Source: Bradyrhizobium sp. CCBAU 53338
GTDB taxonomy: Bacteria > Pseudomonadota > Alphaproteobacteria > Rhizobiales > Xanthobacteraceae
DNA length: 64,000 bases
NCBI RefSeq assembly: GCF_015291665.1
Contig: NZ_CP030048.1
Span: 2,046,001 to 2,110,000, forward strand
Direction of reading: 5' to 3'
Part shown: positions 26,833-51,750 of the stretch, one piece after another
Position numbering within the stretch: position 1 is the first letter of the stretch
Layout: each line of letters begins with the position of its first letter
Notes under the pieces: generated by a model
Databases searched by the model: none
Told to the model about the DNA's origin: nothing
Seen by the model: the letters and a program-made list of their open reading frames with translations, nothing else
Program-made: the position numbers and the translations under genes

Positions 26833-26837
26833 TGGCC

Positions 26838-28196: not shown

Positions 28197-28305
28197 CTCA
28201 ATCCTCCCCGCGTTTCGGCCGATTCCGGCTCTCTATCGGGGCCAAGCAAAACAGGATTCAGGTATTCTTACAAAGAGATAATTGTGCCACTAACATAGAT
28301 AAAAG

Positions 28306-29661: not shown

Positions 29662-30288
29662 TCAGAATCGTCTGGCGATCTCCTCTAGTCGGCGATACGC
29701 CACCTCGCGAGCGGCGCGCAGCGACTCGGCCGGCCCCGTGGTTGGTCCGATCGGTACGAAGCGCACGTCGGTGACGCCGATGAAGCGGAGTGCCTCGCGC
29801 AGATAGGGCGTCGCCATGTCAATGCGACCGCGGTTCATGCCGGTGGCAAAGTCGCTGCCGGAGGCGAGGATCACGATGGTCGGGCGGTCCTTGAGCAGCG
29901 GAATGTAGCCCTGCGCCGGGTCGAAGCGGAACGTCAGGCCGGGCTGGATGATGATGTCGAACCATTGCTTCAGCTTGTAGGGGATGGCGAAATTCCACAT
30001 GGGCGTCGAGATCAGCACGCGGTCGGCCAGCGAGAAGCGCGTCGCAATTCGTTCGGCCTCAGCGAAATTGTTGCGTTGGGCGTCGTTGAAGGTCTCCGCC
30101 CTCATGCGCGCATATTTGGCCTCGACGATGGGACCGGCGAATTCCGGCATCCGTTCCTGCCAAAGATCGACGACGTCGATGTCCCAATCGGGGCGGGCCT
30201 TGCGAAAGCCGTTAAGAAAGATGCGCGCACCGGCGCTCGACTCGGAATCGACGCGCGGCGAGCAGGAGAGGTGCAAGAGCTTTGCCAC
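29662..30288 (-). CDS. FMN-dependent NADH-azoreductase-like flavoprotein (AzoR family)
   Basis: A 208-residue flavodoxin-fold protein. FMN-binding regions are SCSPRVDSESSAG near the N-terminus, STPMWNFAIPYKLKQWFD (a highly characteristic AzoR segment) and VILASGSDF. AzoR enzymes reduce quinones or azo compounds with NADH in the cytoplasm. It starts 3 bases after the stop of the SMP-30/isochorismatase gene and is the last gene of the cluster. A quinone intermediate as substrate is possible but unproven. Confidence 0.9.
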   Translation of the reverse strand: MAKLLHLSCSPRVDSESSAGARIFLNGFRKARPDWDIDVVDLWQERMPEFAGPIVEAKYARMRAETFNDAQRNNFAEAERIATRFSLADRVLISTPMWNFAIPYKLKQWFDIIIQPGLTFRFDPAQGYIPLLKDRPTIVILASGSDFATGMNRGRIDMATPYLREALRFIGVTDVRFVPIGPTTGPAESLRAAREVAYRRLEEIARRF

Positions 30289-30291
30289 CGC

Positions 30292-31869
30292 TCATCCCAG
30301 CGCTCTGATGACGGCATCCGCGCGCGTGACCACGGCGACGTTCTGCATGGCAAAGTTGATCGAGGCCGAGTGCCAGTCCGCATTCATGGTCGAGCAGCAA
30401 TCCTCCGGCACGATCATGAAATAGCCCTTGTCGGCGCCGGTGCGGGCGGTGTGTTCGATCGACATGTTGGTCCAGGCACCGGTGTTGATGATCATGTCGC
30501 GGCCAGTGGCTTTTAGGATCGTCTCCAGCTTGGTGCCTTCCCAAGCACTCATCCGCATCTTCTCGACCACGTAGTCGCCGGGCCGCGGCTCGAGGCCTGA
30601 CACCGGCGCAGCGCCCCAGCTGCCGCGCACCATCGCCTTGCTGTCGACCAGCCCTTCGAACAGCGGCGCGTTCAGCGTCACACCAGGCGCACCGGGCTCG
30701 ACCACGAACCAGACGTGGATGATGGCAACGCCGCGCGACCGCGCGGTCTCCGCCAGGCGCCGGACGTTCTCGACCACATGCTGCTGCTTGGCGTGGCCTG
30801 GCGCACCGGAGTCAGCGAAGGCGCCGCCATCCATGATGACGTCGTTCTGGAGATCCTGGATGATCATGGCGCAGCGCTTCGGATCGAGGCGCAACTCGCC
30901 ATCAGCTAGGATCGGTGGAGTGGCGGCAGAGGCTGTGCTCGTGGCTCCCCCGCTGCTGCGCCTGCCGCTCATATAGGGCTCGTGTCGCGGTCCGGTCCTG
31001 GTTGTGATGGCATAGACTGAATGCGTGGAGGTCAAATAGAGCGTGCGGAAATCAGCTCCACCCCAGGCAAGGTTGGCGACCAACTCCGGCACGCGAACTT
31101 TTCCGAGCTGCTCGCCGCGCGGCGAATAGACCCAGACGCCGCCGGGCGCTGTGACCCAGACATTGCCGTGCTGATCGCATTTCATGCCGTCGGGGACGCC
31201 CGCCTCGAGCTCGGAGCGGATGCCGCTCGCGAATACGCGTGCGTTTGCCAGCATCCCGTCGGCGTTGACGTCGAACACGCGGATCAGCGCCTGCGCGGTG
31301 TCATTGACATAGAGCAGTCTTTCGTCGGGCGAGAAGCACAGCCCGTTCGGCTGTTCGAACAAGGTTCTGTCGACCACCAGCTTCGGTTCGCCGCCGGGCA
31401 CGACGCGATAGACGCCTTGGAAGCCGAGCTGGCGCGGCCGCTCGACGCCATAGACCGGCATCCGGCCATACCAAGGGTCGGAGAAATAGATCGCACCTGA
31501 GGAGTGCACGCAGACGTCGTTTGGACTGTTGAGCTCCTGTCCGCCAAAGTGCGAGGCGAGCACCTCGCGCCGCCCATCCGGCCGTTCGCGGATCAGCGAC
31601 GACGTCGCGTGCTCGCAGACGATCAAATTGAGCTCGGCATCGTAGGTCATGCCGTTGCATTTGTTCGACGGACGCTTGACCTCGGCAACGCCGCGCCGCG
31701 CATCCCAGCGGCGGCGTACATCGCCCGGCATGTCCGAGAACAGAAGGTAGTGATCGACGGGATGCCAGATCGGTCCTTCCGTGAACTCAAAGCCTGTGCC
31801 GACCTGGGCAACGGGTGCGTAGGGGTCGATCAGGGTCTCGAATTCAGAACGTAAGGTGACGTGTGTCAT
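30292..31869 (-). CDS. Fusion protein: SMP-30/gluconolactonase domain plus isochorismatase-like domain
   Basis: A 525-residue two-domain enzyme. Residues 1 to about 295 are an SMP-30/gluconolactonase beta-propeller with likely metal residues Glu31 (FTEGPIWHP), Asn175 (QPNGLCFS) and Asp227 (VPDGMK). A Gly/Ser/Thr/Ala linker (301-320) leads to an isochorismatase-like domain (330-525) with Asp339 (IIQDLQND) and Lys437 (VEKMRMSAWEG). The usual catalytic Cys position is Ser470 (TNMSIEHT), so the second domain may not be a standard cysteine amidohydrolase. The combination suggests lactone opening followed by hydrolysis of an amide- or vinyl-ether-type bond. Confidence 0.9.
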   Translation of the reverse strand: MTHVTLRSEFETLIDPYAPVAQVGTGFEFTEGPIWHPVDHYLLFSDMPGDVRRRWDARRGVAEVKRPSNKCNGMTYDAELNLIVCEHATSSLIRERPDGRREVLASHFGGQELNSPNDVCVHSSGAIYFSDPWYGRMPVYGVERPRQLGFQGVYRVVPGGEPKLVVDRTLFEQPNGLCFSPDERLLYVNDTAQALIRVFDVNADGMLANARVFASGIRSELEAGVPDGMKCDQHGNVWVTAPGGVWVYSPRGEQLGKVRVPELVANLAWGGADFRTLYLTSTHSVYAITTRTGPRHEPYMSGRRSSGGATSTASAATPPILADGELRLDPKRCAMIIQDLQNDVIMDGGAFADSGAPGHAKQQHVVENVRRLAETARSRGVAIIHVWFVVEPGAPGVTLNAPLFEGLVDSKAMVRGSWGAAPVSGLEPRPGDYVVEKMRMSAWEGTKLETILKATGRDMIINTGAWTNMSIEHTARTGADKGYFMIVPEDCCSTMNADWHSASINFAMQNVAVVTRADAVIRALG

Positions 31870-31889
31870 CGGACGATCCTCACATCATG

Positions 31890-32738
31890 CTAGGCCGGGA
31901 ACCAGTTGCGAGCGGGCAGGGACTGCACGATCGGTCCGGGGACCTGGTCGTGCAGCCGGCCCACGACATTGCCGCCTTCGATCTTGGCGGGGCGGTCGTG
32001 CACCGGCAACAGATAGCGCGAGTTGCTGAGCAGCTTCTTGATCGCAGCCTTCTCGGCACGCTTGCTGGTGCCGTGGTTACCCGTGGTGCGCGGCTCCCAG
32101 TCATGGATCTCGTGGAAGGGCGTGACGATCTGGTCGTTGAAATCGTAAATCACGTCGCCGCAGATGGTGGCGATGCCGTCCGCGGTCTCGACGATGATGT
32201 TCATCGAGCCCTCGGTGTGGGCATTGGCGGCGTCACAATAGACACCCGGCATCAGCTCGATCGGGCCGGTGATCTCCAGGTCGAGGAAGCGCAGCGCGCT
32301 CTTGGTGTGCAGACGGTCGATCAAATGTTTGATGTCGGGCGCCGGATATTGCGGGTGCATCAGGCCGGAGACGGAATATTCCAGCTCCTTGCGGTTGAGA
32401 ACGACAGTCGTATTCATCGGGAACAGATCGTCCTTGCCCGCATGATCGATGTGCAGATGGGTGTGGCAGACGAAGCGCACGTCGCCCATGCGCACGCCGT
32501 GGCGGGCGAGCTGGTTCTCGATCATGTGTTCGTGGTACTGCAGCCCCCGCATGCCCAGCGTCTCCATGATCTGATTGGAGCGATAGCCGGTGTCGACCAC
32601 GACAGGATATTTGCCGCCGAGAATCAGAAAGCCCAGCGTGAGGACGCGGCGGGTGCGGCCGCAGTCGCGACCGAGCACCAGGAAGCTCGATTCCAGCTCG
32701 ATATCGCCGTAGTCCAGGATCTTGATCTCCAGCGCCAT
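31890..32738 (-). CDS. Metallo-beta-lactamase-fold hydrolase (lactonase-like)
   Basis: A 282-residue MBL-fold enzyme with the metal motif H-x-H-x-D-H at residues 94-99 (HTHLHIDHAG), a further His-rich site at ANAHTEGSMN, and TICGDVIYDF. The architecture resembles N-acyl-homoserine lactonases and related lactonases. ATG 32738 is preferred because GGGAGGGAA precedes it; a longer frame overlaps the amidohydrolase gene. Lies between the amidohydrolase and the SMP-30 fusion, another hint that ring or lactone opening is part of the pathway. Confidence 0.87.
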   Translation of the reverse strand: MALEIKILDYGDIELESSFLVLGRDCGRTRRVLTLGFLILGGKYPVVVDTGYRSNQIMETLGMRGLQYHEHMIENQLARHGVRMGDVRFVCHTHLHIDHAGKDDLFPMNTTVVLNRKELEYSVSGLMHPQYPAPDIKHLIDRLHTKSALRFLDLEITGPIELMPGVYCDAANAHTEGSMNIIVETADGIATICGDVIYDFNDQIVTPFHEIHDWEPRTTGNHGTSKRAEKAAIKKLLSNSRYLLPVHDRPAKIEGGNVVGRLHDQVPGPIVQSLPARNWFPA

Positions 32739-32769
32739 TCGTTTCCCTCCCTGTGTTCTTTCTTGTCTT

Positions 32770-33654
32770 TCAAAGCCGATAGACGCGAGTTGCGGTACCT
32801 CGGAAGATCGCATCCCGTTGCTCGACGCTCAGCGGCGCGGCCGCTGAGCGGAATGCGTCAACAAGCTCGCGATAGCTGGTCCACAATTTCTCGATCGGGA
32901 AATTCGAGCCGAACAGGCAGCGCTCGGCGCCGAAGATGGCGACGGTGTCCATGACCACCGCAGCGATATGCGCGGGATCGTTGCGGTGGATGAAGGTGCC
33001 GAGCCCCGAGAGCTTCGAGACCACGTTCGGGCAGGTCGCGAGCCGGGCCATGCCGGCGCGCCAGGCCGCACTGCCCGCTGACGAAAGGTCTTCGAGCATG
33101 CCAGCATGCTGGAGGATAAAGGTCACCTTGGGGCAGGATTCGGCGAGATGCGCGGCATCGGGCATCTGCGGCGTGAAAACCTGCAGATCGAAGCTCCAGC
33201 CGTAGTCGGCGAGCCGCGCGACGTTGCGGCGGACCATGGGATCGATGCAGAGATCGGGCCTGGCCGCGAAACGATAGAGCGGGTTTTCATGCCAATGCAG
33301 CTGCATGCGCACGCCGCGGACCAGCGGATAGCGCTTCAAGCGCTCAAGCTGCGGACGCACATCGTCGACAGCGAAATTGGCATAGGCGACGATCGCGTGC
33401 GGCCAGCCATGCTCGTCGGCGGTCCGCTGTACCCAGGCCGCTTCGTTCTCGAAACGGTCATTGGCCCAGTTGGTCTGGACGTAGACTGAGCGGGTGACGC
33501 CGGTGCCCTTGAGGTCGTCGAAATACTCCTCGATCGGATAATCGCGCCTGATAGCCTCGTAGGGTCCGAAGATGCGAGGTTGCATCGCGCCGACCAGCCA
33601 AGGCAGGTCGGCCTGCCGCCAGATATGATGATGCCCGTCGACAATCTCGGTCAC
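32770..33654 (-). CDS. Amidohydrolase_2 family (TIM-barrel) hydrolase
   Basis: A 294-residue metal-dependent hydrolase starting with the family motif VDGHHHIW (His8-10). Later segments FILQHAGML and ERCLFGSNFPIEKLW are the strand 6 and strand 8 sites. Related enzymes open lactones (2-pyrone-4,6-dicarboxylate lactonase, L-fucono- and L-rhamnono-lactonase) or decarboxylate aromatic acids. The start is GTG 33654, overlapping the VWA gene stop (GTGA). Confidence 0.87.
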   Translation of the reverse strand: MTEIVDGHHHIWRQADLPWLVGAMQPRIFGPYEAIRRDYPIEEYFDDLKGTGVTRSVYVQTNWANDRFENEAAWVQRTADEHGWPHAIVAYANFAVDDVRPQLERLKRYPLVRGVRMQLHWHENPLYRFAARPDLCIDPMVRRNVARLADYGWSFDLQVFTPQMPDAAHLAESCPKVTFILQHAGMLEDLSSAGSAAWRAGMARLATCPNVVSKLSGLGTFIHRNDPAHIAAVVMDTVAIFGAERCLFGSNFPIEKLWTSYRELVDAFRSAAAPLSVEQRDAIFRGTATRVYRL

Positions 33655-34772
33655 GCAACTCTCCTTCGTCCCAAGGCCAGGACAAGGGCGACGATCGACG
33701 CGCTCGATCCGCCATCGACGAGGTCGTCAACGAAGCGCTCGATCGCAACGAGCGCCTCCGTCTGCGGACGGAATCTTGGCCCGCTTGCAAGCGGCGTCAG
33801 CCAGCTCACGCGCCAGGCCCGCCGCGATAGCTTTGCCACAGCATCACGCAGGGCATCGGGCTCGCCGCGCTCCAGCCCGTCCGAGACGATGACCACGGCT
33901 GCCCCGCGCGCATAGCCGCCGAAGCGAGGCACCGCGAGGAAGGCTTGGAGCGCATCGCCGATACGGGTGCCCCCGTCCCAGTCGCTGACGAGATGCGCGG
34001 CCGCGCTCAGTGCCTGCTCGCGGCGCTTCACCCGCAGCGCGCGGGTGACGCGGGTCAGCCGGGTGCCGAAGGTGAAGACCTCGACATTGGGCGCGGCCTG
34101 CACCAGCGCATGCGCCAGCTTCATGTTCTCCTCGGTGCGGCTTTTCATCGAGCCGGAGACGTCGATCAGCAGCAGGAACTTTCGCGGGCGCTGGCGCCGC
34201 TTCATATGCCCGAGTCGCAAAATCTCCCCGTCGCTGCGGACGGAGTCGCGCAAAGTGCGGCGGAGATCGGCAAATGGTCCGCGCCGGGCGCGCATGCGGC
34301 GGTGACCGCGCCGTCGCGGCAGGCGCCGCGGCGCTTCGCGAGACAGCCGGCGCAAGGCCTCGCTCGTGGAAAGCTGCGCGAAGCGGCGCTCGACCAGCGC
34401 CTCGGTACGGGTCGCGGTCAGGCCGGACTCGTTGGCGTCGTCGGAGGGCAGCGGCTCCTCGTCGCCGCGACCTTCTTCCTGGAGGCGGACGGCCTCGTCA
34501 TCCTCGCCGTCATCGGTGTGCTCGACTGCCTCACTGCCGCGGAAGTGAAGATCGAATAGCCGGTCAAAGGTCACGCGGCGCTCGGGTGGCGGGGCGAGGG
34601 TGGCCAGAGCGGCCTGCCTGATGTCCCCGAGGTCGCGCGGGCCGAGCAGTTCGATCGCTGTGAGAAACGCGGTGGTCTGCTCCGGCGCGACGGCAAAGGC
34701 GTTGGCGCGCAGCAGTGCGACGAAGGAGACAAAGATGCGGGCGCCGCGCGGAAGCTGAAGCTCGGTGCTCAT
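33651..34772 (-). CDS. VWA-domain protein, CoxE-like
   Basis: A 373-residue protein of the CoxE group. The C-terminal von Willebrand A domain has the metal-dependent adhesion motif D-x-S-x-S at residues 204-208 (LIDVSGSMKSR). The middle (residues 80-170) is acidic then very Arg-rich. In carboxydotrophs CoxE works with the AAA protein CoxD in building the [CuSMoO2] site. ATG 34772 overlaps the MoxR-like gene stop (ATGA). Its place beside a Mo hydroxylase predicts a cofactor-maturation role. Confidence 0.88.
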   Translation of the reverse strand: MSTELQLPRGARIFVSFVALLRANAFAVAPEQTTAFLTAIELLGPRDLGDIRQAALATLAPPPERRVTFDRLFDLHFRGSEAVEHTDDGEDDEAVRLQEEGRGDEEPLPSDDANESGLTATRTEALVERRFAQLSTSEALRRLSREAPRRLPRRRGHRRMRARRGPFADLRRTLRDSVRSDGEILRLGHMKRRQRPRKFLLLIDVSGSMKSRTEENMKLAHALVQAAPNVEVFTFGTRLTRVTRALRVKRREQALSAAAHLVSDWDGGTRIGDALQAFLAVPRFGGYARGAAVVIVSDGLERGEPDALRDAVAKLSRRAWRVSWLTPLASGPRFRPQTEALVAIERFVDDLVDGGSSASIVALVLALGRRRVA

Positions 34773-35650
34773 GCGGTGGCCTCCGCGAGCATCGCGTCGA
34801 GCCGGGACGAGATGAAATGCAGATCCTCCTCGTCCTTGAGCGCCACGCCGATCGAGCGCTTGAACGCGTCCGGCCATCGCGCGCCGCCCTTGTTCAGGAG
34901 CGTCGCGGCCTCGGCCCAGTCGACAGCTTCCGCGATGCCGGGCGCCTTGCTCAGCGGTTCGCGCCGGAGTTTGCCGACCGCCGCGACGACGGCCCGCGCA
35001 GTGGCTTCGGCGACACTGGAGGCTCGTAGCATCACGATGCGCGCCTCGCGCTCCTCGGTCGGATAGTCGATCCAGTGATAGACGCAGCGGCGGCGAAGGG
35101 CTTCGTGCAGGTCGCGCGTCCGGTTCGACGTCAGCACGACGACGGGGCGCTCGGCGGCACGTACCGTGCCGCGTTCGGGAATCGAAATCTGGAAGTCGGA
35201 TAAAAATTCGAGCAGGAAGGCCTCGAACTCCTGATCGGCGCGGTCGATTTCGTCGATCAGCAGCACGGTAGAATCAGGCGCGCGCAACGCCGCCAGCATC
35301 GGCCGCTCGATCAGGAACGTCTCGCCATAGATGTCGATGCTCTCGTCGCCGGCCTGGCGGATCGCGAGCATCTGGCGCGGATAGTTCCATTCGTAGAGCG
35401 CCGCAGAGGCGTCGATGCCCTCGTAGCATTGCAGGCGGATCAGCCGGCGGCCGAGCACGGCGGCGATGGCTTTTGCCGCTTCCGTCTTGCCGACACCCGG
35501 CGCGCCTTCCAGCAGCAGCGGCTTGCCGAGCGCAAGGCTGAGATAGGCGGCGGTCGCAAGGCCTTCGTCGGCGAGGTAATAGGCCGCGCGCAGCGCCCTC
35601 TCCAGCGCCTCCGGGCTGTCGATGCCGACGATGTTGCTGCGGACCGCCAT
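34769..35650 (-). CDS. MoxR-type AAA ATPase, CoxD-like
   Basis: A 293-residue AAA+ ATPase: Walker A GAPGVGKT (residues 49-56), Walker B VLLIDEIDRAD, sensor region VVVLTSNRTRDLHEALRRRC. This is the MoxR/CoxD family, chaperone-like ATPases that act with VWA partners on metalloenzymes. Four-base overlap with the VWA gene and a 12-base gap after the Mo-hydroxylase large subunit support a joint role in maturing that enzyme. Confidence 0.92.
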   Translation of the reverse strand: MAVRSNIVGIDSPEALERALRAAYYLADEGLATAAYLSLALGKPLLLEGAPGVGKTEAAKAIAAVLGRRLIRLQCYEGIDASAALYEWNYPRQMLAIRQAGDESIDIYGETFLIERPMLAALRAPDSTVLLIDEIDRADQEFEAFLLEFLSDFQISIPERGTVRAAERPVVVLTSNRTRDLHEALRRRCVYHWIDYPTEEREARIVMLRASSVAEATARAVVAAVGKLRREPLSKAPGIAEAVDWAEAATLLNKGGARWPDAFKRSIGVALKDEEDLHFISSRLDAMLAEATA

Positions 35651-35662
35651 GAACCAAAACCT

Positions 35663-36685
35663 CTAGCGCCGCGCCTGCGGCCGCGCGCCGCCCTGGGCCT
35701 TGATCGCGCGCAGCACCTTTTCAGGCGTAATCGGGAGATCGTCGATGCGTACGCCGACCGCGTTGAAGATCGCGTTGGCTACGGCCGGCAGCACCGGGTT
35801 GGCGCACATCTCGCCGGGGCCCTTGGCGCCGAACGGACCATCAGGGGCAGGGCGTTCCAGCACGGCGATATCGTGCGGGCAGATGTCACCGGGGCCGGGC
35901 ATCAGATATTCGACGAAGTCGCGCGGGCCATGCACGGGTTCGGGATAATACGGCTCCGGCGTCTCATACAGCGCGTGGCTCACGCCCATCCAGGCGCCCC
36001 CAACGAGTTGCTGCTCGACCAGGCGCGGATTGAGCGCGCGTCCGAGCTCGTAGGCCGAATCCATTCGCACCATCGCGACCTCGCCGGTCTCGTCGTCGAC
36101 ATCGACCTCGGCGACGAGGCAGGCATGGGCATAGCAGGTCGCCGGCGACATCTCGCCGGTCTCCGGGTTCACCTCGGAGAGGGGCACCAGGAAGATGCCG
36201 CGGCCGGAGATGGTCTTGCCCTGCTTGAACTGCGCGGCAATCGCGACGTCCTTGGTCGAGATCGAGCGGTGCGGCGCGCCCCTGACGTGAATGTTGCCAC
36301 GCCCGTCGGTCTCGAGATCGGCGGCGTTGACTTCCAGCTCCTCGGCGGCCGCTTCCATCATCACGCCGCGCGCCTCGCGGGCCGCGGCCATCACAGCATT
36401 GCCGACGCGATGGGTGCCTCGTGATGCGAACGAACCCATGCAATGCGGGCCGGTGTCGGAATCGGCCGTGTCGACATAGACGTCCTCGACCGGCACGCCC
36501 AGCGTCTCCGCGCAGATCTGCCGCGTCACCGACTTCATGCCCTGTCCCAGGTCGATCGACGACAGCGCCACCGTGAACTTGCCGCTCGGGTTGGAATGCA
36601 CCAGCGCCTGGCTGGGATCGCCGCCGAGATTCATGCCGATGGGATAATTGATCGACGCGATGCCGCGTCCGCGATGCCGGGTCAT
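35663..36685 (-). CDS. Molybdenum hydroxylase large subunit, C-terminal half (separate gene)
   Basis: A 340-residue protein equal to the second half of XdhB/CoxL-type subunits. It has the molybdopterin-binding SSIDLGQGMKSVTRQI, FASRGTHRVGNAV and the active-site glutamate region GPFGAKGPGEMCANP with the catalytic Glu at residue 292. It starts with ATG directly after the TAG of the N-terminal-half gene and in the same frame, so one amber codon separates the halves. Both halves together (about 870 residues) match a normal large subunit. Confidence 0.9.
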   Translation of the reverse strand: MTRHRGRGIASINYPIGMNLGGDPSQALVHSNPSGKFTVALSSIDLGQGMKSVTRQICAETLGVPVEDVYVDTADSDTGPHCMGSFASRGTHRVGNAVMAAAREARGVMMEAAAEELEVNAADLETDGRGNIHVRGAPHRSISTKDVAIAAQFKQGKTISGRGIFLVPLSEVNPETGEMSPATCYAHACLVAEVDVDDETGEVAMVRMDSAYELGRALNPRLVEQQLVGGAWMGVSHALYETPEPYYPEPVHGPRDFVEYLMPGPGDICPHDIAVLERPAPDGPFGAKGPGEMCANPVLPAVANAIFNAVGVRIDDLPITPEKVLRAIKAQGGARPQARR

Positions 36686-38278
36686 CTAGCGCCTCCTGGT
36701 GCCGAAGACGGAGGAGAAACGGGTCGCGCCATGCGATGGCGCGGCGGGCCGCGGCGAGGGCGGCGGCGGGGCAGGTGGTGGTGGTTCGCGCGGCGGTTCG
36801 CGGGTGACGGTCGGCGGCAGGCGGTCATAGCTAGTGCGCTGTTGAGCCGGAGAAGCGGAGCGCGCGCGTCCGTCCGTTGGCGTGGACGGGATGGTCGCGC
36901 GGCTGCCGCCGCCGTCCTTGCGCGAGGACGCTCGCTTGAATTCCTCGCGCAGCGGCCATTTTGCCTTCTCGGCCGCGACCTGCACGCATTCGATCAGTGC
37001 CGTGTTCTTGGCCTCGCGCCGGTGCGCCTTCATGTCTCCGTCGCGATAGGCGTTGAGGATCCGGAATTCCATCGGATCCATGTTGATGAGGTTCGCCAGC
37101 TTGTCCATCTGGCACTCGATGGCAAAATCCATCGCGGTGACGCCGAAGCCGCGCATGGCGGTCGCCGGCGTACGGTTGGTGAAAACGCAATAGACGTCGC
37201 CATAGACGTTCGGGATGGTGTAGGGGCCCGGCAGATGAGCGGCGCATTTCACCGCGGCGTAGCTGGACAGCCGCGTATAGGCGCCGCTGTCGAAATAGGC
37301 GCGGATCTTGCGCGCGACGATGCGGCCATCGCGCATGACGCCGTCCTTGATGTAGATGCGCTCGGCGCCGCGCGGCGGGCCGTACTGCATCTCCTCTTCG
37401 CGCCCGAACACGTAACGTACAGGCTTTCCGGTCAGCATCGCGCCGAGGATGGCGAGCGGCTCGGTCAGCGTGTCGACCTTGCCGCCAAAGCCGCCCCCTA
37501 CGGTGCCGCCGATGAAGTGGAAGGTGTTGGACGGGACGTCCAAAATCTTGGCGCAGGTGTCGACCGAGAAGAACAGCGCCTGGGTCGAGGTGTAGACGAC
37601 ATAACGGCCATTGGTGTCGGGGGCCGCGATCGCGCCGTTGGTCTCGGTCGGCGCGTGCTCGATCGGCGACATCTGGTAGCGCTGCTCCAGCACGTGATCG
37701 GCGGTCGCCAGCGCCGCATCGGCATCGCCAAAGCGCAGCCGCTGGTGATCATAAGTCTCGTGATAGGTGAAGGTGTTCTTCGGATAGGTCTCGTTGACCA
37801 CGGGCGCGCCGGGCTTGAGCGCATCCTCGACGTCGAACACGGCCGGCAGCGGTTCGTAGTCGATTCTGACTTTCGCGATCGCCTCGAACGCCTCGCGCTC
37901 GCCGTCGGCGACGATGGCGACAATGGGCTCGCCCTTGTAGCGGACCTTGTCGACCGCCAGCGACGGCTCGTCGTCCTTGCCGAAATTGATCAGGCTCAAA
38001 AGCGTGTTGAGATTGACCGGTACGTCGGCGCCGCGGATGATCCTGCGCACGCCGGACGAACGCTCGGCCTCGGCCGTGTCGATGCGGCGGATGCGTGCAT
38101 GTGCCTGCGTCGAGCGCACGACCTTCAGATGCAGCATGCCCTGCAGTTTGTGGTCATTAAAGTAGCTCGACGTACCCGTGACATGGCCAAGCATGTCCTG
38201 GCGCTGGGTGCCCTTGCCGATTTCCTTCAAGTTATCGTCGCGCTCGTCGGCGAAAATGTCCTTGCGCAATTCCAGCAT
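36686..38278 (-). CDS. Molybdenum hydroxylase large subunit, N-terminal half with Pro-rich tail
   Basis: A 530-residue protein: the Ald_Xan_dh_C a/b domain (residues 25-145; VTGTSSYFNDHKLQGMLH), then the first Mo-cofactor domain with GGGFGGK (261-267) and the active-site loop TAMRGFG (374-379). That loop resembles xanthine-dehydrogenase-type hydroxylases and not the AYxCSFR loop of form I CO dehydrogenase. Residues about 455-530 are an unusual low-complexity tail rich in Pro, Arg and Ser. It ends in TAG directly before the C-terminal-half gene. Confidence 0.9.
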   Translation of the reverse strand: MLELRKDIFADERDDNLKEIGKGTQRQDMLGHVTGTSSYFNDHKLQGMLHLKVVRSTQAHARIRRIDTAEAERSSGVRRIIRGADVPVNLNTLLSLINFGKDDEPSLAVDKVRYKGEPIVAIVADGEREAFEAIAKVRIDYEPLPAVFDVEDALKPGAPVVNETYPKNTFTYHETYDHQRLRFGDADAALATADHVLEQRYQMSPIEHAPTETNGAIAAPDTNGRYVVYTSTQALFFSVDTCAKILDVPSNTFHFIGGTVGGGFGGKVDTLTEPLAILGAMLTGKPVRYVFGREEEMQYGPPRGAERIYIKDGVMRDGRIVARKIRAYFDSGAYTRLSSYAAVKCAAHLPGPYTIPNVYGDVYCVFTNRTPATAMRGFGVTAMDFAIECQMDKLANLINMDPMEFRILNAYRDGDMKAHRREAKNTALIECVQVAAEKAKWPLREEFKRASSRKDGGGSRATIPSTPTDGRARSASPAQQRTSYDRLPPTVTREPPREPPPPAPPPPSPRPAAPSHGATRFSSVFGTRRR

Positions 38279-38289
38279 GGCGACGTCCT

Positions 38290-38766: not shown

Positions 38767-38771
38767 GCGGT

Positions 38772-40034: not shown

Positions 40035-40039
40035 GGATC

Positions 40040-40477: not shown

Positions 40478-40487
40478 GGGTCGGACC

Positions 40488-43394: not shown

Positions 43395-43421
43395 GTTTCT
43401 CTCCCTCAATCCTAAAAGGCG

Positions 43422-44255: not shown

Positions 44256-44258
44256 CGG

Positions 44259-46478
44259 TCACCTCGCTACTCTCCGGCGTGCCCCGGCGCGTCCGAACAG
44301 GGTTCGGAAGGCGCTCACGATGATCGAGGCGAACTCGGGATCGTTGATGTTCTGCTTGACGCGAATGAGCTGCCGGTTGCCGGTCAAACGCACTGTGCGT
44401 TCCAGCGTCCGGAACAGCGCGGCGTCGGCCTCGGGGTCCCAGAACGGCTGGCCGCGGGCATCGAGCGCGGAAACGCCACCCTCGGGGAGGAAGAAGCGCA
44501 CGGGCCCGTCCATCTGGTTCAACCGTTCGCCGATCCAGCGGCCCATGCGCTCGTTCTCTTCCGCGGTCGTGCGCATCAGCGTGACCTGCGGATTATGGAC
44601 GTGGAATTTACGGCCGCGATAGCGCTCGGGGACGGTGTCCGGCGCGCCGAAATTGACCATGTCGAGAGCGCCGACCGAGCCGACAAAGGGCAGGCGGGTG
44701 CGGATCACGGCGCTGAAGCGATCCTCCGTCGCCGGAAACACGCCGCCCATCAGGAGGTCGCATATCTCGGTGGTGGTGAGATCGATCACGCCGGCAAGCT
44801 GGCCGGACTCGACGAGCTTCTCCATGGAGCGGCCGCCGACGCCGGTGGCGTGAAACACCAGGCATTCGAAATCGTCGCGTAAGTCGGCTGCGATCTTCTG
44901 CACGGCCGGCGTGGTGACGCCGAACATGGTGATGCCGATCGACGGCAGCCCCGCGCTTGCCGCGCGCTCCCTGTCCTCGCGCTGGTCGAGCCGCGCCTTG
45001 ACCATGCCGATGATGGCGTTGGCGCCATTCGACAGCACGGCGCGCGAGATCGAGTTGAGGCCCTGCACGTCGGTGACCGAATACATCATGGTGATGTCGG
45101 CGGGACCGACATAGGGCGCGACGTCGCCCGAGGCGACTGAAGAGATGATCAATTTGGGCACCCCGACGGGGAGGGTGCGCATAGCGGGGGCGACCAGCGA
45201 TGCCGCGCCAGAGCCGCCGGCAGAAATCACGCCGGCGACGTTGCCCTGGCGTTTGATCCAGTTGGCAAACGCCTCCGCCATCGCCGTCACGGCGGCGCCG
45301 CGGTCCGGGCCGAACACGGCGGAACCGCCGCGGCCATGGTTCAGCGCGATCTCCTGCGCGGAAACGTCGCAAGTTGCATGCTTGCCGCTGGTGGAGACGT
45401 CGACCAGCCGCGTGCGCAGCCCGGCCTCGCCGATGATGTCGCGGATGAAGCGCAGCTCCGTGCCCTTGGTGTCGAGCGTGCCGACGACCAGCACCGCCGG
45501 CGGGCCCGAGGCCTGCGCCGTCGTCGTCGGCTCGCGCTTGCGCCGAGCGGTCTCGTCGAGGCGCGAGACCTGCGTTGACAGCGTGCGCGCCGCCGCTTCG
45601 ATGCGGCCGATCGAGACCGGCTGCGACCAGCGCGTCGGCGGGGTGGGGTTGGAGATGTAGACCCGGATCGGACCGCTGCTGCGTGGAGGCTGAGCAGCTG
45701 GCTTTGTTTCGCCGCCCGCCGCCGTCATATCGATATCGGGCTCTAGTTCGGCATGCAGTCCGACGCCAAGCAGGCGTTGCTGCAGCTCTCGGTCAGCGGA
45801 CAGCCGCGCGGAATCGATGATGCGGTTGATGCGGCCGTTGACCATGATCGCGACATTGCGCGAGATCGCGGTAGCGACGCCGATGTTCTGCTCGATCACG
45901 AGTACTGACATGTCGCCGTCCTCACCGAGCTGCAGCAGCATCTCCTCGACCTGGGCGACGATGACGGGCGCAAGCCCCTCGGTCGGCTCGTCCATGATCA
46001 GCAATTGTGGATTGGTCAGCAGCGCGCGCGAGATCGCGAGCATCTGCTGCTCGCCGCCCGAGAGCTGGCCGCCGCCATGGTCCTTGCGCTCGGCGAGCCG
46101 CGGAAAGGTGTCGTAGATGCGCTCGACGGTCCAGGCGCCGGAGCGCATGCCGCCGGCGAGCCGCAGATGTTCGTCGACGCTCAGCGAGCGCCAGAGCCGG
46201 CGGCCTTGCGGCACGTAGCCGACGCCCAGCCGCGCGATCTGCGCCGGCGGCCGGCGCGTGATGTCCTCACCGCGCACCCGGATCGAGCCGCCGCTGACCG
46301 ACACCAGACCCATGATCGCCTTGCACAGCGTGGTCTTGCCCATGCCGTTGCGCCCGACCACCGAGAACACGCCGGCGTCGAGGGTGAGGTCGACACCCTG
46401 CAGCGCGTGCGAATGGCCGTAATAGACGTCGAGGCCACGGACCTCGAGTGCGGCGGCGGAGCGGCGGGCCTCACTCAT
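44259..46478 (-). CDS. Fusion: LivF-type ABC ATPase plus Tm-1-like/UPF0261 domain
   Basis: A 739-residue protein. Residues 1-240 are a complete LivF-type ATPase: Walker A GRNGMGKTT, signature LSGGEQQMLAISRALL, Walker B LLIMDEPTEGLAP. Residues about 240-325 are a linker, and about 330-730 are a Tm-1-like ATP-binding (UPF0261) domain: VLVVGTLDTKGTELRFI, AGVISAGGSGAASLVAPAMR, FGVTTPAVQKIA and VFHATGVGGRSMEKL. The start overlaps the LivG-like gene by 8 bases. The usual LivF is about 235 residues, so this is a true gene fusion and not a read-through artefact. Confidence 0.92.
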   Translation of the reverse strand: MSEARRSAAALEVRGLDVYYGHSHALQGVDLTLDAGVFSVVGRNGMGKTTLCKAIMGLVSVSGGSIRVRGEDITRRPPAQIARLGVGYVPQGRRLWRSLSVDEHLRLAGGMRSGAWTVERIYDTFPRLAERKDHGGGQLSGGEQQMLAISRALLTNPQLLIMDEPTEGLAPVIVAQVEEMLLQLGEDGDMSVLVIEQNIGVATAISRNVAIMVNGRINRIIDSARLSADRELQQRLLGVGLHAELEPDIDMTAAGGETKPAAQPPRSSGPIRVYISNPTPPTRWSQPVSIGRIEAAARTLSTQVSRLDETARRKREPTTTAQASGPPAVLVVGTLDTKGTELRFIRDIIGEAGLRTRLVDVSTSGKHATCDVSAQEIALNHGRGGSAVFGPDRGAAVTAMAEAFANWIKRQGNVAGVISAGGSGAASLVAPAMRTLPVGVPKLIISSVASGDVAPYVGPADITMMYSVTDVQGLNSISRAVLSNGANAIIGMVKARLDQREDRERAASAGLPSIGITMFGVTTPAVQKIAADLRDDFECLVFHATGVGGRSMEKLVESGQLAGVIDLTTTEICDLLMGGVFPATEDRFSAVIRTRLPFVGSVGALDMVNFGAPDTVPERYRGRKFHVHNPQVTLMRTTAEENERMGRWIGERLNQMDGPVRFFLPEGGVSALDARGQPFWDPEADAALFRTLERTVRLTGNRQLIRVKQNINDPEFASIIVSAFRTLFGRAGARRRVAR

Positions 46479-47253
46479 GGCCGCCTCCGAGATAAAGCTC
46501 CTGCACCTCGGGGTCGGACTGGATCTCCTCCGGCAGCCCCTCCTTGAAGATGCGGCCGTTGTGCATCATCGTCACGCTCTCGACGACGCGCAGCGCGACA
46601 TCCATGTCATGCTCGATGATGATGTAGCCGATATGCGCCGGCAGCGAGGTCAGGATCTCGACCAGCTCGGCGCGTTCGGTCGGCGACAGGCCGGCGGCGG
46701 GCTCGTCGAACAGCACGAAGCGCGGCGCACCTGCGAGCGCCAGCGCGATCTCGAGCTGGCGCTGCTGGCCGTGCGCGAGCTCGGCGACGCGTTGGTCTTT
46801 CACGGCGGTCAGATGCACGGCCTGCACCAGGCCATCGGCTGCATGGATCAGCGCATCGTTCTGGGTGGGCCGCAGGAAGGAGAAGCGTCCGCGCGAGACG
46901 CCGCGACAGGCAAGATACACATTGTCCTGCACGGTGAGGCCGGGGAACAGCGCGGAGATCTGATAGGTCCGCCTGAGGCCACGGCGAATGCGCTCATAGG
47001 GCGGGAAGTGGGTGACGTCCTCGCCGAAGAAACGGATCGTGCCCGATGTCGGTGGGAAGTCGCCGGTGATGCAGTTAAACAGCGTGGTCTTGCCGGCGCC
47101 GTTGGAGCCGAGCACGGCGCGCCGTTCGCCGGGGCGCACGGTGATGGTGACGTCGGTCAGCGCCGCCAGCGCGCCGAACAGCCGGGTGACGCCGCGCAGC
47201 TCGAGCGCAGCACCGGCACCGACGGCGGAGAGGCGCTGGGCGACGCTATCCAT
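46471..47253 (-). CDS. Branched-chain-amino-acid-type ABC ATPase (LivG-like)
   Basis: A 260-residue ATPase: Walker A GSNGAGKTT, a LivG-typical insertion region RGLRRTYQISALFPGLTV, signature-like LAHGQQRQLEIALALAG (the first Ser-Gly of LSGG is LAHG, as usual for LivG proteins) and Walker B VLFDEPAAGLSP. It overlaps the LivM-like gene by 8 bases and the fusion ATPase gene by 8 bases. Forms the ATPase pair with the LivF domain of the next gene. Confidence 0.93.
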   Translation of the reverse strand: MDSVAQRLSAVGAGAALELRGVTRLFGALAALTDVTITVRPGERRAVLGSNGAGKTTLFNCITGDFPPTSGTIRFFGEDVTHFPPYERIRRGLRRTYQISALFPGLTVQDNVYLACRGVSRGRFSFLRPTQNDALIHAADGLVQAVHLTAVKDQRVAELAHGQQRQLEIALALAGAPRFVLFDEPAAGLSPTERAELVEILTSLPAHIGYIIIEHDMDVALRVVESVTMMHNGRIFKEGLPEEIQSDPEVQELYLGGGHE

Positions 47254-48334
47254 GGCCGCGCCCTCCGCCCAGCCGATCCGACTGCGGGCGATGGCTCTGC
47301 CGCCAGCGCTGCCACAGGCCGATCATGCCATCCGACGACCAGAACACGATGGCGAGGAAGCCGAGGCCGATAAGCAGCCGGAAACGGTTGCCGTCGAGCC
47401 CGATCTTGACCAGGAAGTCGAGCGCGAAGGTGCGCAGGAGCACGAACACGAGCGCGCCGATATAGGGACCGATCGGCCGGGTGATGCCGCCAACGACAGC
47501 GATGATGAGGATATCGATGCAGGCGCCGACGCTGACCGAACCCGGCGAGATCTGGCGATAGTTCCAGACCTGGAGCACACCGGCGAGGCCGGCGATGAAG
47601 GATGCCACCGCGTAGGCGGCGACGCGGTGCGCATTGACGTTGAAGCCGAGCGCCGCCATGCGGCGCGGGTTGTCGCGCACGCCCTGCAGTGCTAGGCCGA
47701 ACGGCGCGCGGGAGATGTAGTCGACGGCGAAATAGCACAGCGCGGCGACTGCGAGCACGACGTAGTAGAAGGGGATATCGGATCGCCAGTCGACGCCCCA
47801 GAAATGCGGCGTCGCGACGTTGTTGATGCCGGTGTGGCCGTTGAAGATCGCCCAGTTCTGGTTGGTGAAGTAGTAGAACGCCGCCCCGATCGCGAGCGTG
47901 ATCATGATGGTGTAGATGCCTTCAGTCCGTACCGCGAGCGCGCCGCCGAGCGTGCCGAAGATGGTCGCAAGCGTCAGCGCCATCGGTACGGCGAGCCACC
48001 ACGGCCAGCCCAGGCTGATATTGGCATTGCCGCTGACGCCGAACACCGCGACCATATAGGCACAGAAGCCCGCGATGGTGAGCTGCATCAGGCTGACCAT
48101 GCCGCCATAACCGGCCAGGAACATCAGGCTGAGCGCGATGGTGCCGAGCATCAGCGTGGTCGCAAAAATCTCGATCAGGAAGAAGCCGTTGGCGATCAGC
48201 GGCATGATCAGAAGGATCACGGCGACGATCCAGGCTGCGGGATTGTTCAGGTCGGGCCAGCCGCGGGCGGCCTGCCGCTGCGCCGATGAAGCGGAGCTGC
48301 GGATCCGAATGCGAGTATCGTGGGTGACGGACAT
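47246..48334 (-). CDS. Branched-chain-amino-acid-type ABC permease (LivM-like)
   Basis: A 362-residue membrane protein with about nine to ten helices. LivM family segments: LMFLAGYGGMVSLMQLTIAGFCAY, GALAVRTEGIYTIMITLAIGAAFYY and RAPFGLALQGVRDNPRRMAALGFN. The N-terminal 30 residues are polar. One base separates it from the LivH-like stop. Confidence 0.92.
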   Translation of the reverse strand: MSVTHDTRIRIRSSASSAQRQAARGWPDLNNPAAWIVAVILLIMPLIANGFFLIEIFATTLMLGTIALSLMFLAGYGGMVSLMQLTIAGFCAYMVAVFGVSGNANISLGWPWWLAVPMALTLATIFGTLGGALAVRTEGIYTIMITLAIGAAFYYFTNQNWAIFNGHTGINNVATPHFWGVDWRSDIPFYYVVLAVAALCYFAVDYISRAPFGLALQGVRDNPRRMAALGFNVNAHRVAAYAVASFIAGLAGVLQVWNYRQISPGSVSVGACIDILIIAVVGGITRPIGPYIGALVFVLLRTFALDFLVKIGLDGNRFRLLIGLGFLAIVFWSSDGMIGLWQRWRQSHRPQSDRLGGGRGHG

Positions 48335-48335
48335 G

Positions 48336-49346
48336 TCAGCGCCTCGCCAGCAGGCCCTGCGGCCGAAGCGCCAGCACCAGCACCATGATCAGGAAGGTCA
48401 CGACGATGGCGTAGGTCGGGATGTAGACCGAGCCGAGCTGCTCGGCGAGGCCGATGATGAGCGCGCCGAGGGCGGCACCGGGGATCGAGCCCATGCCGCC
48501 GACGATCACGACCACGAGGGACGCCAGCAGGAAGCGGATGTCCTCGCCGGGCGACAGTGACTGGAAGGTGCCGCCGACCACGCCCGCGATACCGGCAAGG
48601 CCGGCGCCGAGTGCGAACACCAGCACGAACACGATCTGGATGCGCACGCCGGTCGCGGCGAGAATGTCGCGGTCGTCGACGCCGGCGCGGATGATCATGC
48701 CGATCCGGGTGCGGTTGAGCGCGAGCCACATCGCGATGCCGATGATCACGGAAGCCAGGAAGATCACGAGTCGCACCAGCGGATAGCGCAAGTAAACCGG
48801 CTCGCCGGAGGATTTCACCGCGGTGATCAGCGGCAGCTCGATCGGGCCGATCAGCCAATTCGGGGTCTGGATCTGGTAGAAGTCGCCGCCGCAGGCCCAC
48901 AGCATCAAATCGGCGAACACGATCGAGAGGCCGATGGTCACCATGGTTTGCCTGAGATCCTGGCCCTCCATCCGGCGGAACACGAGCATCTGAAGCAAGA
49001 CGCCGACCAGCGCCGTCAGGATGAAGGCGACGATGAAGGAGAGGATCCACGACCCGGTCGAGGCGCTGATGGCGTAGCCGACATAGCCGCCGAACAGATA
49101 GAGCGAGCCGTGTGCAAGGTTGACGTTGCGCATCAGGCCGAAGATCAGCGTGAAGCCGCTGGCGACGAGGAAATAGAGGCCACCAAGCGTAATGCCGTTG
49201 AACAGCGCGTTGAGGAACACCCGCTTGCGGCCGATGGTGTCCTCAAGCCCGGACGGCCAGACCGCGAAAATCAGCCACAGCAACACGGCAACTGCGATGA
49301 TGATGATCAGTGCCCAAGCGGGATGGCGCTCGATAAAGCGGGTCAT
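48336..49346 (-). CDS. Branched-chain-amino-acid-type ABC permease (LivH-like)
   Basis: A 336-residue membrane protein. LivH segments: FNGITLGGLYFLVASGFTLIFGLMRNVNLAHGSLY (split), RTRIGMIIRAGVDDRDILAATG and the C-terminal FLLASLVVVIVGGMGSIPGAALGA. An N-terminal extra helix (residues 10-32) precedes the usual start. Encoded upstream of the LivM-like gene; 198 bases separate it from the AraC gene. Confidence 0.92.
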   Translation of the reverse strand: MTRFIERHPAWALIIIIAVAVLLWLIFAVWPSGLEDTIGRKRVFLNALFNGITLGGLYFLVASGFTLIFGLMRNVNLAHGSLYLFGGYVGYAISASTGSWILSFIVAFILTALVGVLLQMLVFRRMEGQDLRQTMVTIGLSIVFADLMLWACGGDFYQIQTPNWLIGPIELPLITAVKSSGEPVYLRYPLVRLVIFLASVIIGIAMWLALNRTRIGMIIRAGVDDRDILAATGVRIQIVFVLVFALGAGLAGIAGVVGGTFQSLSPGEDIRFLLASLVVVIVGGMGSIPGAALGALIIGLAEQLGSVYIPTYAIVVTFLIMVLVLALRPQGLLARR

Positions 49347-49543
49347 GGCGTCACCTCGCTCCGCTTGCGATGGTCGCCATCACACTTCGGATACAGGTCA
49401 GACAGCCCTGTGCAGGCTGCGTACGTCGCCATGGACGTGCGTCCTCCCGGACTTGAGCGATCCTCTTGCCGGGATCGCGTTCCGCCCATCCTAGTGGGGC
49501 GGCGAGAGAGGCACTTGATCGTGAGTATCTTTTCGCGCGTCCG

Positions 49544-50371
49544 TCAGCCGCGCAAAACCTTGGCCGCGCGGCGATAATCGGTCGGCGCCATCCCGACATT
49601 GGCGGCAAAGAAGCGGGTGAAACCGCTCTGCGAGGAGAAGCCGAGGTCGAAGCCGATGTCGGCGATCGGCGCCTCGCTCGCCACCAGGGCTTCCAGCGCC
49701 TGCTCCATCATCAGCGTGTTGAGATAGAGGTGCGGCGTGACACCGGTCTGGGTGCGGAACAGCCGGTAGAAATGCGGCCGCGACAGGCCGGATTCGCGTG
49801 CGATGGAGTCAAGCTCGATCTCCGCGCCGGGACTTTCCGACATCATCTTGATGCACTTGCGGACGCGATAATCGGTGATGGAGCCATTTGCGCGCAGATC
49901 GGGCGCGGTCTCGGCCTGCTGCCAGCTTTCGTCGTAGCAGATATCGATAAGCCGTCGCAACTCGCCATCGAGGCTGTTCAGCGAGGGTGCGCCGCACACA
50001 AGGGCTGCGGCGTGCCTGATCTGCTTATCGAGCGCCGGCGATCGCGCGAACTGAGTACGGCCGAAGCGGAGGCGGTCGGCGCCGGGCGCATCGGGCGCGA
50101 ACCATTCCGCATTGACATAGAGCACGAAGAAGACGGCGCCGCCGTCGAGGTCGGTGGGAAGGAAATTATGCGGCTCCCACGGATTGACCGCGACGACCGA
50201 GCCTTCGGTGAGGTCGTAGCGTCCGTCGTTGACATCGATGCATGCGGAGCGCCCGCCGACATGGAAGATCAAATGACCTTCGCGATGCGCGTGGATATTG
50301 AAGGGGCGGTTCAACTGATAGACCGTCGCCCGGCCGAAACGGCCGTGGAAGACGGCGAGCGCCCGGCTCAT
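49544..50371 (-). CDS. AraC-family transcriptional regulator
   Basis: A 275-residue regulator. The N-terminal cupin-like sensor domain (INIHAHREGHLIFHVGG-like stretch, GSVVAVNPWEPHNF) is followed by two C-terminal helix-turn-helix motifs (LDSIARESGLSRPHFYRLFR and IADIGFDLGFSSQSGFTRFF). ATG 50371 is used, with GGGAGGGAAG upstream; the frame open to 50434 has no homology there. Located between the binding-protein and permease genes, it is the likely ligand-responsive activator of the cluster. Confidence 0.92.
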   Translation of the reverse strand: MSRALAVFHGRFGRATVYQLNRPFNIHAHREGHLIFHVGGRSACIDVNDGRYDLTEGSVVAVNPWEPHNFLPTDLDGGAVFFVLYVNAEWFAPDAPGADRLRFGRTQFARSPALDKQIRHAAALVCGAPSLNSLDGELRRLIDICYDESWQQAETAPDLRANGSITDYRVRKCIKMMSESPGAEIELDSIARESGLSRPHFYRLFRTQTGVTPHLYLNTLMMEQALEALVASEAPIADIGFDLGFSSQSGFTRFFAANVGMAPTDYRRAAKVLRG

Positions 50372-50499
50372 GCCTTCCCTCCCAGAAGCTTTTGTCTTTT
50401 TTTGTAGCGTTCTACAACCGGGGAGAGAATGCAAGAGTTCGCGTGTCGCGCCTCTGCAAATCTCTCCCGGTCAGTCATCACGTCGCTGACGCGACTACG

Positions 50500-51750
50500 T
50501 CAGTACTTCTTACATTCCGGTACTGTACGACTGGGCAGACCGATCTTGGCGAACACGGCGGGGTCGTAGCCCAGCGTCTGGTTGACGTTCGGGATCACCT
50601 TCACGACCTTCGAGAACAATGCACCCTTGCCGTCATCGACCACTTCGGTGACGAAATTGGTGCCGATCGCTTGGCGGTTGGAGTCGAGCTTGATCTTGCC
50701 GTTGGGCGCGTCGAGCTCAATTTTGGCGAGAGCAGCCTTGTACTTGGACTGGTTGTCGCTGAGATCGCCGTTGACCTGACGCAGCGCCAGGATCAGCGCC
50801 ATGGTCGAGCCGTAATAGTTGGTGGCGAGCAGCGACGGGCTCGGGAAGCGCTTAGCCGGCGGGAAGGCGTCCTGATAGTCCTTCACGAACTTCTGCCAAC
50901 CCGGATCCTCCCAGGTGTCGGCCTGGCCGCTGGCGGCCAGCGTGCCGATCAGCGCGTTCTTGGCGTTGCCCTTGGACGACAGGATGGTCTGGTCGATCAT
51001 GATCGAGCCGCCCATCAAATGCGCCTTGCCGCCAGCCTGCTGGTACTGGTTGAGGAAGTTAACCGCGTCGGCGCCGCCGAGGCCGAGATAGATGGCATCG
51101 ACATCGTCGGGCAGGGCGGCGATGACCGAGGCAAAGTCCTTGGTGCCGAGCGGCACCCATTGCCGGTTGGTCACTTGCCCGCCGGCGCCGCAAAATTCGA
51201 GCACGAGGCCAAATACCTGGGTGTAGATGAAGGAGTAATCCTCGCCGACGGTCGCGATCTTGCGATAACCCTTGGTCTCGTAGGCGTATTTGCCGAGGCC
51301 GACCTGCCACTGCGCGCCATCCATGTTGTAGCGGAAGAAGTTCGGGGCCGGATCGACATAGGTCGTTTCCTGCGCGCCGGAGGCCGCGTTGATGAAAGTC
51401 AGCTCCGGATGAGTCTTTGCGAAGTTCTTGACCGCGATGCCCTCGTCGCCCGAGAGCGGCGAAAGCAGAATCTGCACCTTGTCCTGCTCAATCAGCTTTC
51501 GCACAGCGCGTACTGCGGAATCGGGCGTCGCGTCGGTCGAGGCGATGACGAATTCGAGTTCCTTGTCGCCGACCTTCTTGCCGAGCACGTTGAGTGCCGT
51601 CTGGAAGCCGCGGATGCCGTCCTCGCCGAGTACGGTGTAGGTACCTTCGAGCGTCGCAGTGACGCCGACCTTGATCTTCTCTTGTGCGAAGGCGGGGCCC
51701 GACAACAATAAGCTGCTCAACGCAATCAGTCCTAGACTGCCTTTCAACAT
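50500..51750 (-). CDS. Branched-chain-amino-acid-type periplasmic binding protein (LivJ/K-like)
   Basis: A 416-residue Peripla_BP_6 protein with a signal peptide (SLGLIALSSLLLSGPAFAQE). Typical features: IKVGVTATLEGTYTVLGEDGIRGFQ, VQILLSPLSGDEGIAV and the central KIATVGEDYSFIYTQVFG. GGAGGAGAG precedes ATG 51750. First gene of the cluster. Proteins of this family in soil bacteria often bind aromatic acids or other organic compounds, so the name does not fix the ligand. Confidence 0.9.
   Translation of the reverse strand: MLKGSLGLIALSSLLLSGPAFAQEKIKVGVTATLEGTYTVLGEDGIRGFQTALNVLGKKVGDKELEFVIASTDATPDSAVRAVRKLIEQDKVQILLSPLSGDEGIAVKNFAKTHPELTFINAASGAQETTYVDPAPNFFRYNMDGAQWQVGLGKYAYETKGYRKIATVGEDYSFIYTQVFGLVLEFCGAGGQVTNRQWVPLGTKDFASVIAALPDDVDAIYLGLGGADAVNFLNQYQQAGGKAHLMGGSIMIDQTILSSKGNAKNALIGTLAASGQADTWEDPGWQKFVKDYQDAFPPAKRFPSPSLLATNYYGSTMALILALRQVNGDLSDNQSKYKAALAKIELDAPNGKIKLDSNRQAIGTNFVTEVVDDGKGALFSKVVKVIPNVNQTLGYDPAVFAKIGLPSRTVPECKKY

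Follow-up and report, generated by a model that had tools for sequence, protein, structure and literature searches.

Several described systems resemble parts of the locus treated here. BlcABC degrades gamma-butyrolactone to gamma-hydroxybutyrate and the semialdehyde (PMC5924552). In CO dehydrogenase, CoxD is linked to sulfuration and CoxE and CoxF to copper (PMC4240915). UPF0261 and TBST, the two halves of the plant antiviral protein Tm-1, are termed uncharacterised in the accessible part of the paper on their origin (PMC5028733), and no function for UPF0261 was found in that part or in the part of PMC6867892 available. Here we describe a 20-gene island in a 64,000-nucleotide stretch of DNA (the window) from the 8.28 Mb genome of Bradyrhizobium sp. 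CCBAU 53338 (NZ_CP030048.1, positions 2,046,001 to 2,110,000), which combines a Liv-type importer, UPF0261 and TBST proteins, a molybdenum (Mo) hydroxylase with CoxD- and CoxE-type helpers and several hydrolases. That the island is inherited as a unit, one two-module system for import and ring opening, is well supported. No description of it as a system was found in the literature searched, the component families themselves being known, and no paper found there brings together flotillin, xanthine dehydrogenase and Bradyrhizobium.

A preliminary description of this DNA, made from the sequence letters, had proposed a one-way cluster of 20 genes with gaps of mostly 0-31 bases or short overlaps. 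All 20 open reading frames (ORFs) are indeed present on the minus strand and fill the whole span (window 29662-51750). From 5′ to 3′ the intergenic gaps are 65, 197, 1, -8, -8, 3, 12, ~10, 5, 0, 5, 11, 0, 12, ~-4, -4, ~31, 20 and 3 nt, assuming likely internal starts for SRPBCC-1, CoxE and the metallo-beta-lactamase-fold hydrolase (MBL); only those between the substrate-binding protein (SBP) and AraC (65) and between AraC and LivH (197) exceed ~31 nt. The same description had named gene-neighbourhood conservation as one check on its proposal, and parts without co-conservation were not seen. In a sample of 146 Bradyrhizobium genomes, with thresholds of E ≤1e-240 for the fusion of ABC ATPase and Tm-1 and E ≤1e-120 for the Mo subunit, the fusion was present in 116. 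Fusion and Mo subunit occurred together in 112 genomes, neither in 30, the fusion only in 4 and the Mo subunit only in none (Fisher p = 3.6e-27, a statistic that ignores shared ancestry). The four fusion-only genomes (G041, G072, G089, G138) are each in 330 to 1020 contigs.

Twenty-one loci were taken from the 116 fusion-bearing genomes, 19 of them without contig-end cuts. All 20 genes were matched in 16 of the 19, two of which (G045, G097) have interrupted genes, and the other three (G012, G084, G074) match 19 genes at 39-82% identity and lack the FMN reductase. The G045 copy is apparently decaying: its fusion gene is broken in two, the medium Mo subunit contains a stop and half of CoxE is matched. 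Among the best 80 of 569 loci from a search with the TBST gene (79 with Bradyrhizobium in the title and one with Frankia; the other named loci from beyond the genus are plasmid records), the block from SBP to CoxE is complete and ordered in 71, the remaining 9 being short contig ends, and strict colinearity holds in 78. The record titled Frankia sp. RB7, whose TBST is 98% identical and which also has the block from SBP to CoxE, is probably mislabelled. The five hydrolase or redox domains noted previously are all present, but the FMN reductase is not part of the core: it is matched in 16/19 uncut Bradyrhizobium loci, in 0/9 extended loci of other families with the island's arrangement (type A, below) and in 0/20 Mo-bearing stretches outside the genus, most of which end before its place.

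Outside Bradyrhizobium, 36 of 40 fetched stretches matched the fusion over 60% of its length. The genes from the FAD subunit to MadB adjoin it in 20 of the 36, representing 14 families, and the Mo module is absent from 16. Twelve of these 16 follow a second arrangement, type B (LivH-LivM-SBP-LivG-fusion-TBST-flotillin-SRPBCC-SRPBCC, where TBST, or LivH in its usual position, is absent from some). Of the remaining four, G371 is cut, G814 is intermediate, and in G244 and G401 the Mo part lies elsewhere. Nine of ten extended loci from other families are of type A. All 19 core genes are found in order in six of the nine (G158, G242, G474, G369, G166, G832), whilst in the others SBP has relocated to the 3′ end (G346), MBL is missing (G810), or MBL and TBST are both missing (G416). 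Gene order and orientation are kept at 37-86% protein identity in other families, and the arrangement is therefore more than chance. Plasmids carry type A in Yoonia and Shinella (the latter without MBL) and type B in Variovorax; on a Thermomicrobium plasmid the ATPase and Tm-1 are encoded by two neighbouring genes, TBST is present and the Mo enzyme is not split.

The Mo module can also be found without the importer. Across 397 genomes of the order the Mo subunit was present in 60. In 47 of them the identity is ≥74% and the fusion is always there as well; the other 13 match at 63-72%. No fusion lies nearby in any of 12 of these 13 lower-identity loci (G249 was left out). The order FAD-FeS-MoL-MoM-MadB-CoxE-Amh2 is complete in 10 of the 12, L254 being cut by a contig end and L256 lacking MadB, CoxE and Amh2, and AraC and SRPBCC genes lie upstream in 5. 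The same seven-gene order recurs in Sinorhizobium BG8 and the actinomycete Nonomuraea. Moreover, a haloarchaeal plasmid (L241) carries FAD-FeS-MoL-MoM-cyclase-SRPBCC, its split Mo subunit 60% identical to the window's. The island is two joined modules, importer/Tm-1 and Mo, that also live apart in other genomes.

Domain scans recovered the expected domains: importer, AraC, UPF0261, TBST, flotillin, Mo hydroxylase subunits, AAA and VWA helpers and the five hydrolase or redox domains. Of the names given in the preliminary description, the CoxG-like label is not supported by these scans; the fusion of UPF0261 to the importer's second ATPase goes beyond that description, and the Mo subunit proved to be genuinely split into two genes.

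Genes of the island, listed from 5′ to 3′ in window coordinates.
Feature	Coordinates	Strand	Basis
SBP, periplasmic substrate-binding protein (Peripla_BP_6)	50500..51750	-	domain scan; nearest solved chains 4zpj, then 4evq, 4ey3
AraC-type regulator with cupin-like sensor domain	49544..50434	-	domain scan
LivH-type permease	48336..49346	-	domain and model scans
LivM-type permease	47246..48334	-	domain and model scans
LivG-type ATPase	46471..47253	-	domain and model scans
Fusion: LivF/UrtE-type ABC ATPase (residues ~11-240) and UPF0261/Tm-1 N- and C-domains (328-729)	44259..46478	-	domain scan; motifs
TBST/PEP_hydrolase-like TIM barrel, usual UPF0261 partner	43422..44255	-	domain scan; 2p10 404 bits
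Giant flotillin, 973 aa, 44/11-residue repeat	40488..43409	-	domain scan
SRPBCC protein 1, likely start near 40477	40040..40579	-	domain scan
SRPBCC protein 2; zinc alcohol dehydrogenase fusion in type B relatives	39591..40034	-	domain scan
FAD subunit of Mo hydroxylase	38772..39590	-	domain scan
2x[2Fe-2S] subunit, eight Cys	38290..38766	-	domain scan; Cys count
Large Mo subunit MoL (Ald_Xan_dh_C, MoCoBD_1), Pro/Arg-rich C-terminal tail, AMRGFG at 374	36686..38278	-	domain scan; motifs
Medium Mo subunit MoM (MoCoBD_2), GAKGPGE motif at 286	35663..36685	-	domain scan; motifs
AAA+ ATPase, MadB/CoxD-like	34769..35650	-	domain scan; MadB model 271.5 bits, cut-off 475
VWA protein, CoxE-like, likely start near 34772	33651..34877	-	domain scan
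Amh2, COG3618 amidohydrolase, lactonase-like	32770..33654	-	domain scan; predicted structure comparison
MBL, metallo-beta-lactamase-fold hydrolase, AHL/pyridoxolactonase-like, likely start near 32738	31890..32813	-	domain scan; motif
Fusion: SMP-30/gluconolactonase and isochorismatase-fold domain with Ser470 for Cys	30292..31869	-	domain scan; alignments
FMN-dependent azoreductase/flavodoxin-fold protein, accessory	29662..30288	-	domain scan; neighbourhood comparison

An ABC importer distinct from that of the island (SBP_bac_1, BPD_transp_1) lies next to it at window 25858-29226, together with a LysR regulator, and an IS66 TnpB-like fragment is found upstream of the island at 53719-54312.

The Liv/HAAT-type importer set is complete in the domain scan, with SBP, two BPD_transp_2 permeases and two ATPases. 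UPF0261 is covalently fused to the second ATPase, in which Walker A, LSGG and Walker B are present; both UPF0261 domains score above cut-off (NF002673, 596 bits against 520), as does TBST (PF09370, 433 bits against 33.8). Four more TBST (PF09370) matches above cut-off lie on the second contig of the host genome, and stand-alone Tm-1/TBST pairs on three plasmids adjoin Gfo/Idh/MocA and cupin genes, with sugar-type ABC genes in two of the three. No mention of 9mpy was found in the literature searched. Counted from the first start codon of the longest frame, and so possibly too long (1311 aa in Yoonia where 1129 aa are annotated), the flotillins of 23 type A loci measure 876-1311 aa and those of 13 type B loci 528-939 aa. 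The only Pfam match of the SRPBCC pair is PF10604 (SRPBCC/Polyketide_cyc2), which leaves the name CoxG unsupported. SRPBCC-2 of type B is 489-608 aa long in 12 of 13 loci, and the zinc alcohol dehydrogenase domain was confirmed in the two scanned. Tm-1 binds ATP, and it is conceivable, though rather doubtful, that UPF0261 and TBST form an ATP-using enzyme pair tethered to the importer in a flotillin-built membrane compartment with SRPBCC carriers, uptake and the first steps making one membrane-bound assembly line. If so, the plant antiviral protein would be a re-used catabolic enzyme.

The Mo enzyme has the composition of the xanthine oxidase family: FAD, 2x2Fe-2S, Ald_Xan_dh_C, MoCoBD_1, MoCoBD_2 and motifs for molybdopterin and the catalytic Glu. 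Its Mo subunit is split into two abutting ORFs in 71/71 loci, with varying relative frame, which rules out a broken single gene. CO had been thought an unlikely substrate, and we reject CO dehydrogenase likewise. The active-site motif of that enzyme, CSFR, is absent, and TIGR02416, a model built for the unsplit subunit, gives 178 (large) and 116.5 (medium) bits against a cut-off of 991.

The predicted structure of Amh2 (pLDDT 93.5) best matches COG3618 chains and PDC hydrolases. Amh2 is 30% identical to 4dlf and, at 107.6 bits, does not reach the cut-off of 400 of the L-fucono-1,5-lactonase model NF052480; a shared fold, here a predicted one, is by itself no proof of lactonase activity. The MBL and SMP-30 domains are two further lactonase-type folds. 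MBL has the HxHxDH motif and scores 50.3 bits with AiiA (cut-off 375) and 38.9 bits with AttM (cut-off 390). The isochorismatase-fold domain keeps Asp339 and Lys437 and has Ser470 at the position of the Cys nucleophile. Ser stands there in 30 of 31 relatives, the 31st sequence being cut, whilst all seven paralogues that were aligned, out of 10 domain matches in the genome, have Cys, as does L246. This replacement weakens the case for a cysteine amidase, and for the same reason the opening of a lactone has better support than that of an amide. The hydrolases had been described as suited to opening lactones or amides; ring-opening types, including the COG3618-like Amh2, are there, and it is the amide half of that statement that lost ground.

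In 6 of the 9 extended type A loci of other families, as well as in Shinella, Yoonia and three distant Bradyrhizobium, an iron-type alcohol dehydrogenase (Fe-ADH) gene lies between SBP and AraC. For the two copies scanned the best model is 4-hydroxybutyrate dehydrogenase, below its cut-off of 500 (G810 372 bits, Yoonia 86 bits). An aldehyde dehydrogenase (ALDH) in G474 and Yoonia is closest to alpha-ketoglutaric semialdehyde dehydrogenase, again below cut-off; the host genome encodes elsewhere an ALDH 63% identical to Yoonia's. On a Burkholderia plasmid an MBL 61% identical to the window's lies <5 kb from an Fe-ADH above the 4-hydroxybutyrate dehydrogenase cut-off.

We infer the reactions, their order and the substrate class as follows. 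A small molecule would be imported via the binding protein and Liv-type permeases. UPF0261/Tm-1, covalently tied to the second ATPase, would work with TBST and lie on the inner side of the membrane alongside the flotillin as a scaffold and the SRPBCC pair as ligand carriers; in this way the substrate, or an intermediate formed early, could be handled at the importer. The split-subunit Mo hydroxylase, matured by the CoxD/CoxE-type AAA and VWA helpers, would oxidise a ring or lactol carbon; Amh2 would open the resulting lactone-like ring, and the MBL and SMP-30 enzymes may act on the same or later lactones. In the related loci, Fe-ADH and, in two of them, ALDH could carry a hydroxy acid through the semialdehyde to a diacid. 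Import, Mo-dependent oxidation to a lactone-like ring and hydrolytic opening in a two-module system is our best reading, and we hold it slightly more probable than its alternatives together. Lactone chemistry is moderately supported, and a lactol or O-heterocycle is somewhat favoured over an N-heterocycle. Of the earlier picture of an imported cyclic compound that is hydroxylated and then cleaved, the co-inherited unit of uptake and catabolism is supported, but as one made of two modules that occur separately elsewhere.

A number of observations weigh against this reading. No NCBIfam lactonase cut-off is reached by the island's hydrolases, the SRPBCC pairs suggest a hydrophobic ligand, and the solved chains nearest to SBP (4zpj, 4evq, 4ey3) are not known to us as sugar binders. 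Fe-ADH is absent from the window, from 10/10 close named loci checked and from G025 and G052, and the nearest copies in the host genome are only 34% and 32% identical. MBL is missing in 2/9 extended type A loci and TBST in 1/9, TBST also in 3/20 Mo-bearing stretches; neither is indispensable beside the rest of the island. Moreover, type B requires three changes on the UPF0261 tree (49 rows, L128 being dropped as it gave no match), and the fusion may have been gained or lost more than once.

The most serious competitor is N-heterocycle catabolism, in which an N-heteroaromatic would be hydroxylated to a cyclic amide and opened by Amh2 or the isochorismatase-fold domain. Both Mo subunits have nicotinate dehydrogenase (3hrd chains A and B) as nearest solved relative, cyclase-family hydrolases lie near the Mo hydroxylase in the haloarchaeal and Thermomicrobium loci (best model arylformamidase, ~40 bits, cut-off 223), and two type B loci contain amidohydrolases. 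However, the isochorismatase-type domain is without its Cys nucleophile, the predicted structure of Amh2 is closest to COG3618 and PDC hydrolases, and domain scans found no ring dioxygenase domain among the island's 20 genes; we regard this route as possible but unlikely. That two functionally unrelated operons are merely travelling together would agree with the separate occurrence of each module in other genomes, but the modules are joined in 15 families, the 27 sampled type A fusion proteins form one clade (99/99) on the UPF0261 tree, and the SRPBCC and AraC genes that precede the stand-alone Mo module in 5/12 loci link the two, which makes such a coincidence improbable. Inactivation of a signal or xenobiotic, for example a lactone signal, instead of growth catabolism appears still more remote. 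MBL does resemble acyl-homoserine lactone (AHL) lactonases, but falls far below the AiiA and AttM cut-offs; a dedicated importer and 19 core genes would be costly for quenching, and blcABC is described as degrading gamma-butyrolactone (PMC5924552).

The two-module import and ring-opening island, with its fusion in 116/146 Bradyrhizobium genomes, is a large, strongly conserved and apparently uncharacterised system, and the covalent tie of UPF0261/TBST to substrate import means that what they do can be tested directly in a soil bacterium. Like tomato Tm-1 (3wry) and Mll9387 (2p10), the island has both halves of the Tm-1/UPF0261-TBST pair, here adjacent, but UPF0261 is fused to an ABC-import ATPase whereas in plants it is fused to TBST (PMC5028733). 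As in NdhF/S/L/M, the nicotinate dehydrogenase of Eubacterium barkeri (3hrd), there are FAD and 2Fe-2S subunits, and the Mo subunit consists of a large and a medium polypeptide (PMC10331938); the sequence match is distant. Amh2 is predicted to share the fold of the COG3618 hydrolases (4dlf, 6uvz) and PDC hydrolases, but stands apart from 4dlf in sequence and below the L-fuconolactonase cut-off. With the cox operon the island has in common a FAD/FeS/Mo enzyme with AAA and VWA partners; it differs in the missing CSFR motif and in an SRPBCC pair matching PF10604 only. Moreover, all 20 ORFs are assigned to something other than CoxF, and by analogy this would fit a copper-free enzyme. Finally, several relatives pair the MBL lactonase-like gene with Fe-ADH, as blcABC/attKLM does, and Yoonia and G474 add ALDH; the window's island differs from blcABC/attKLM in having neither dehydrogenase, in its low AttM score and in being far larger.

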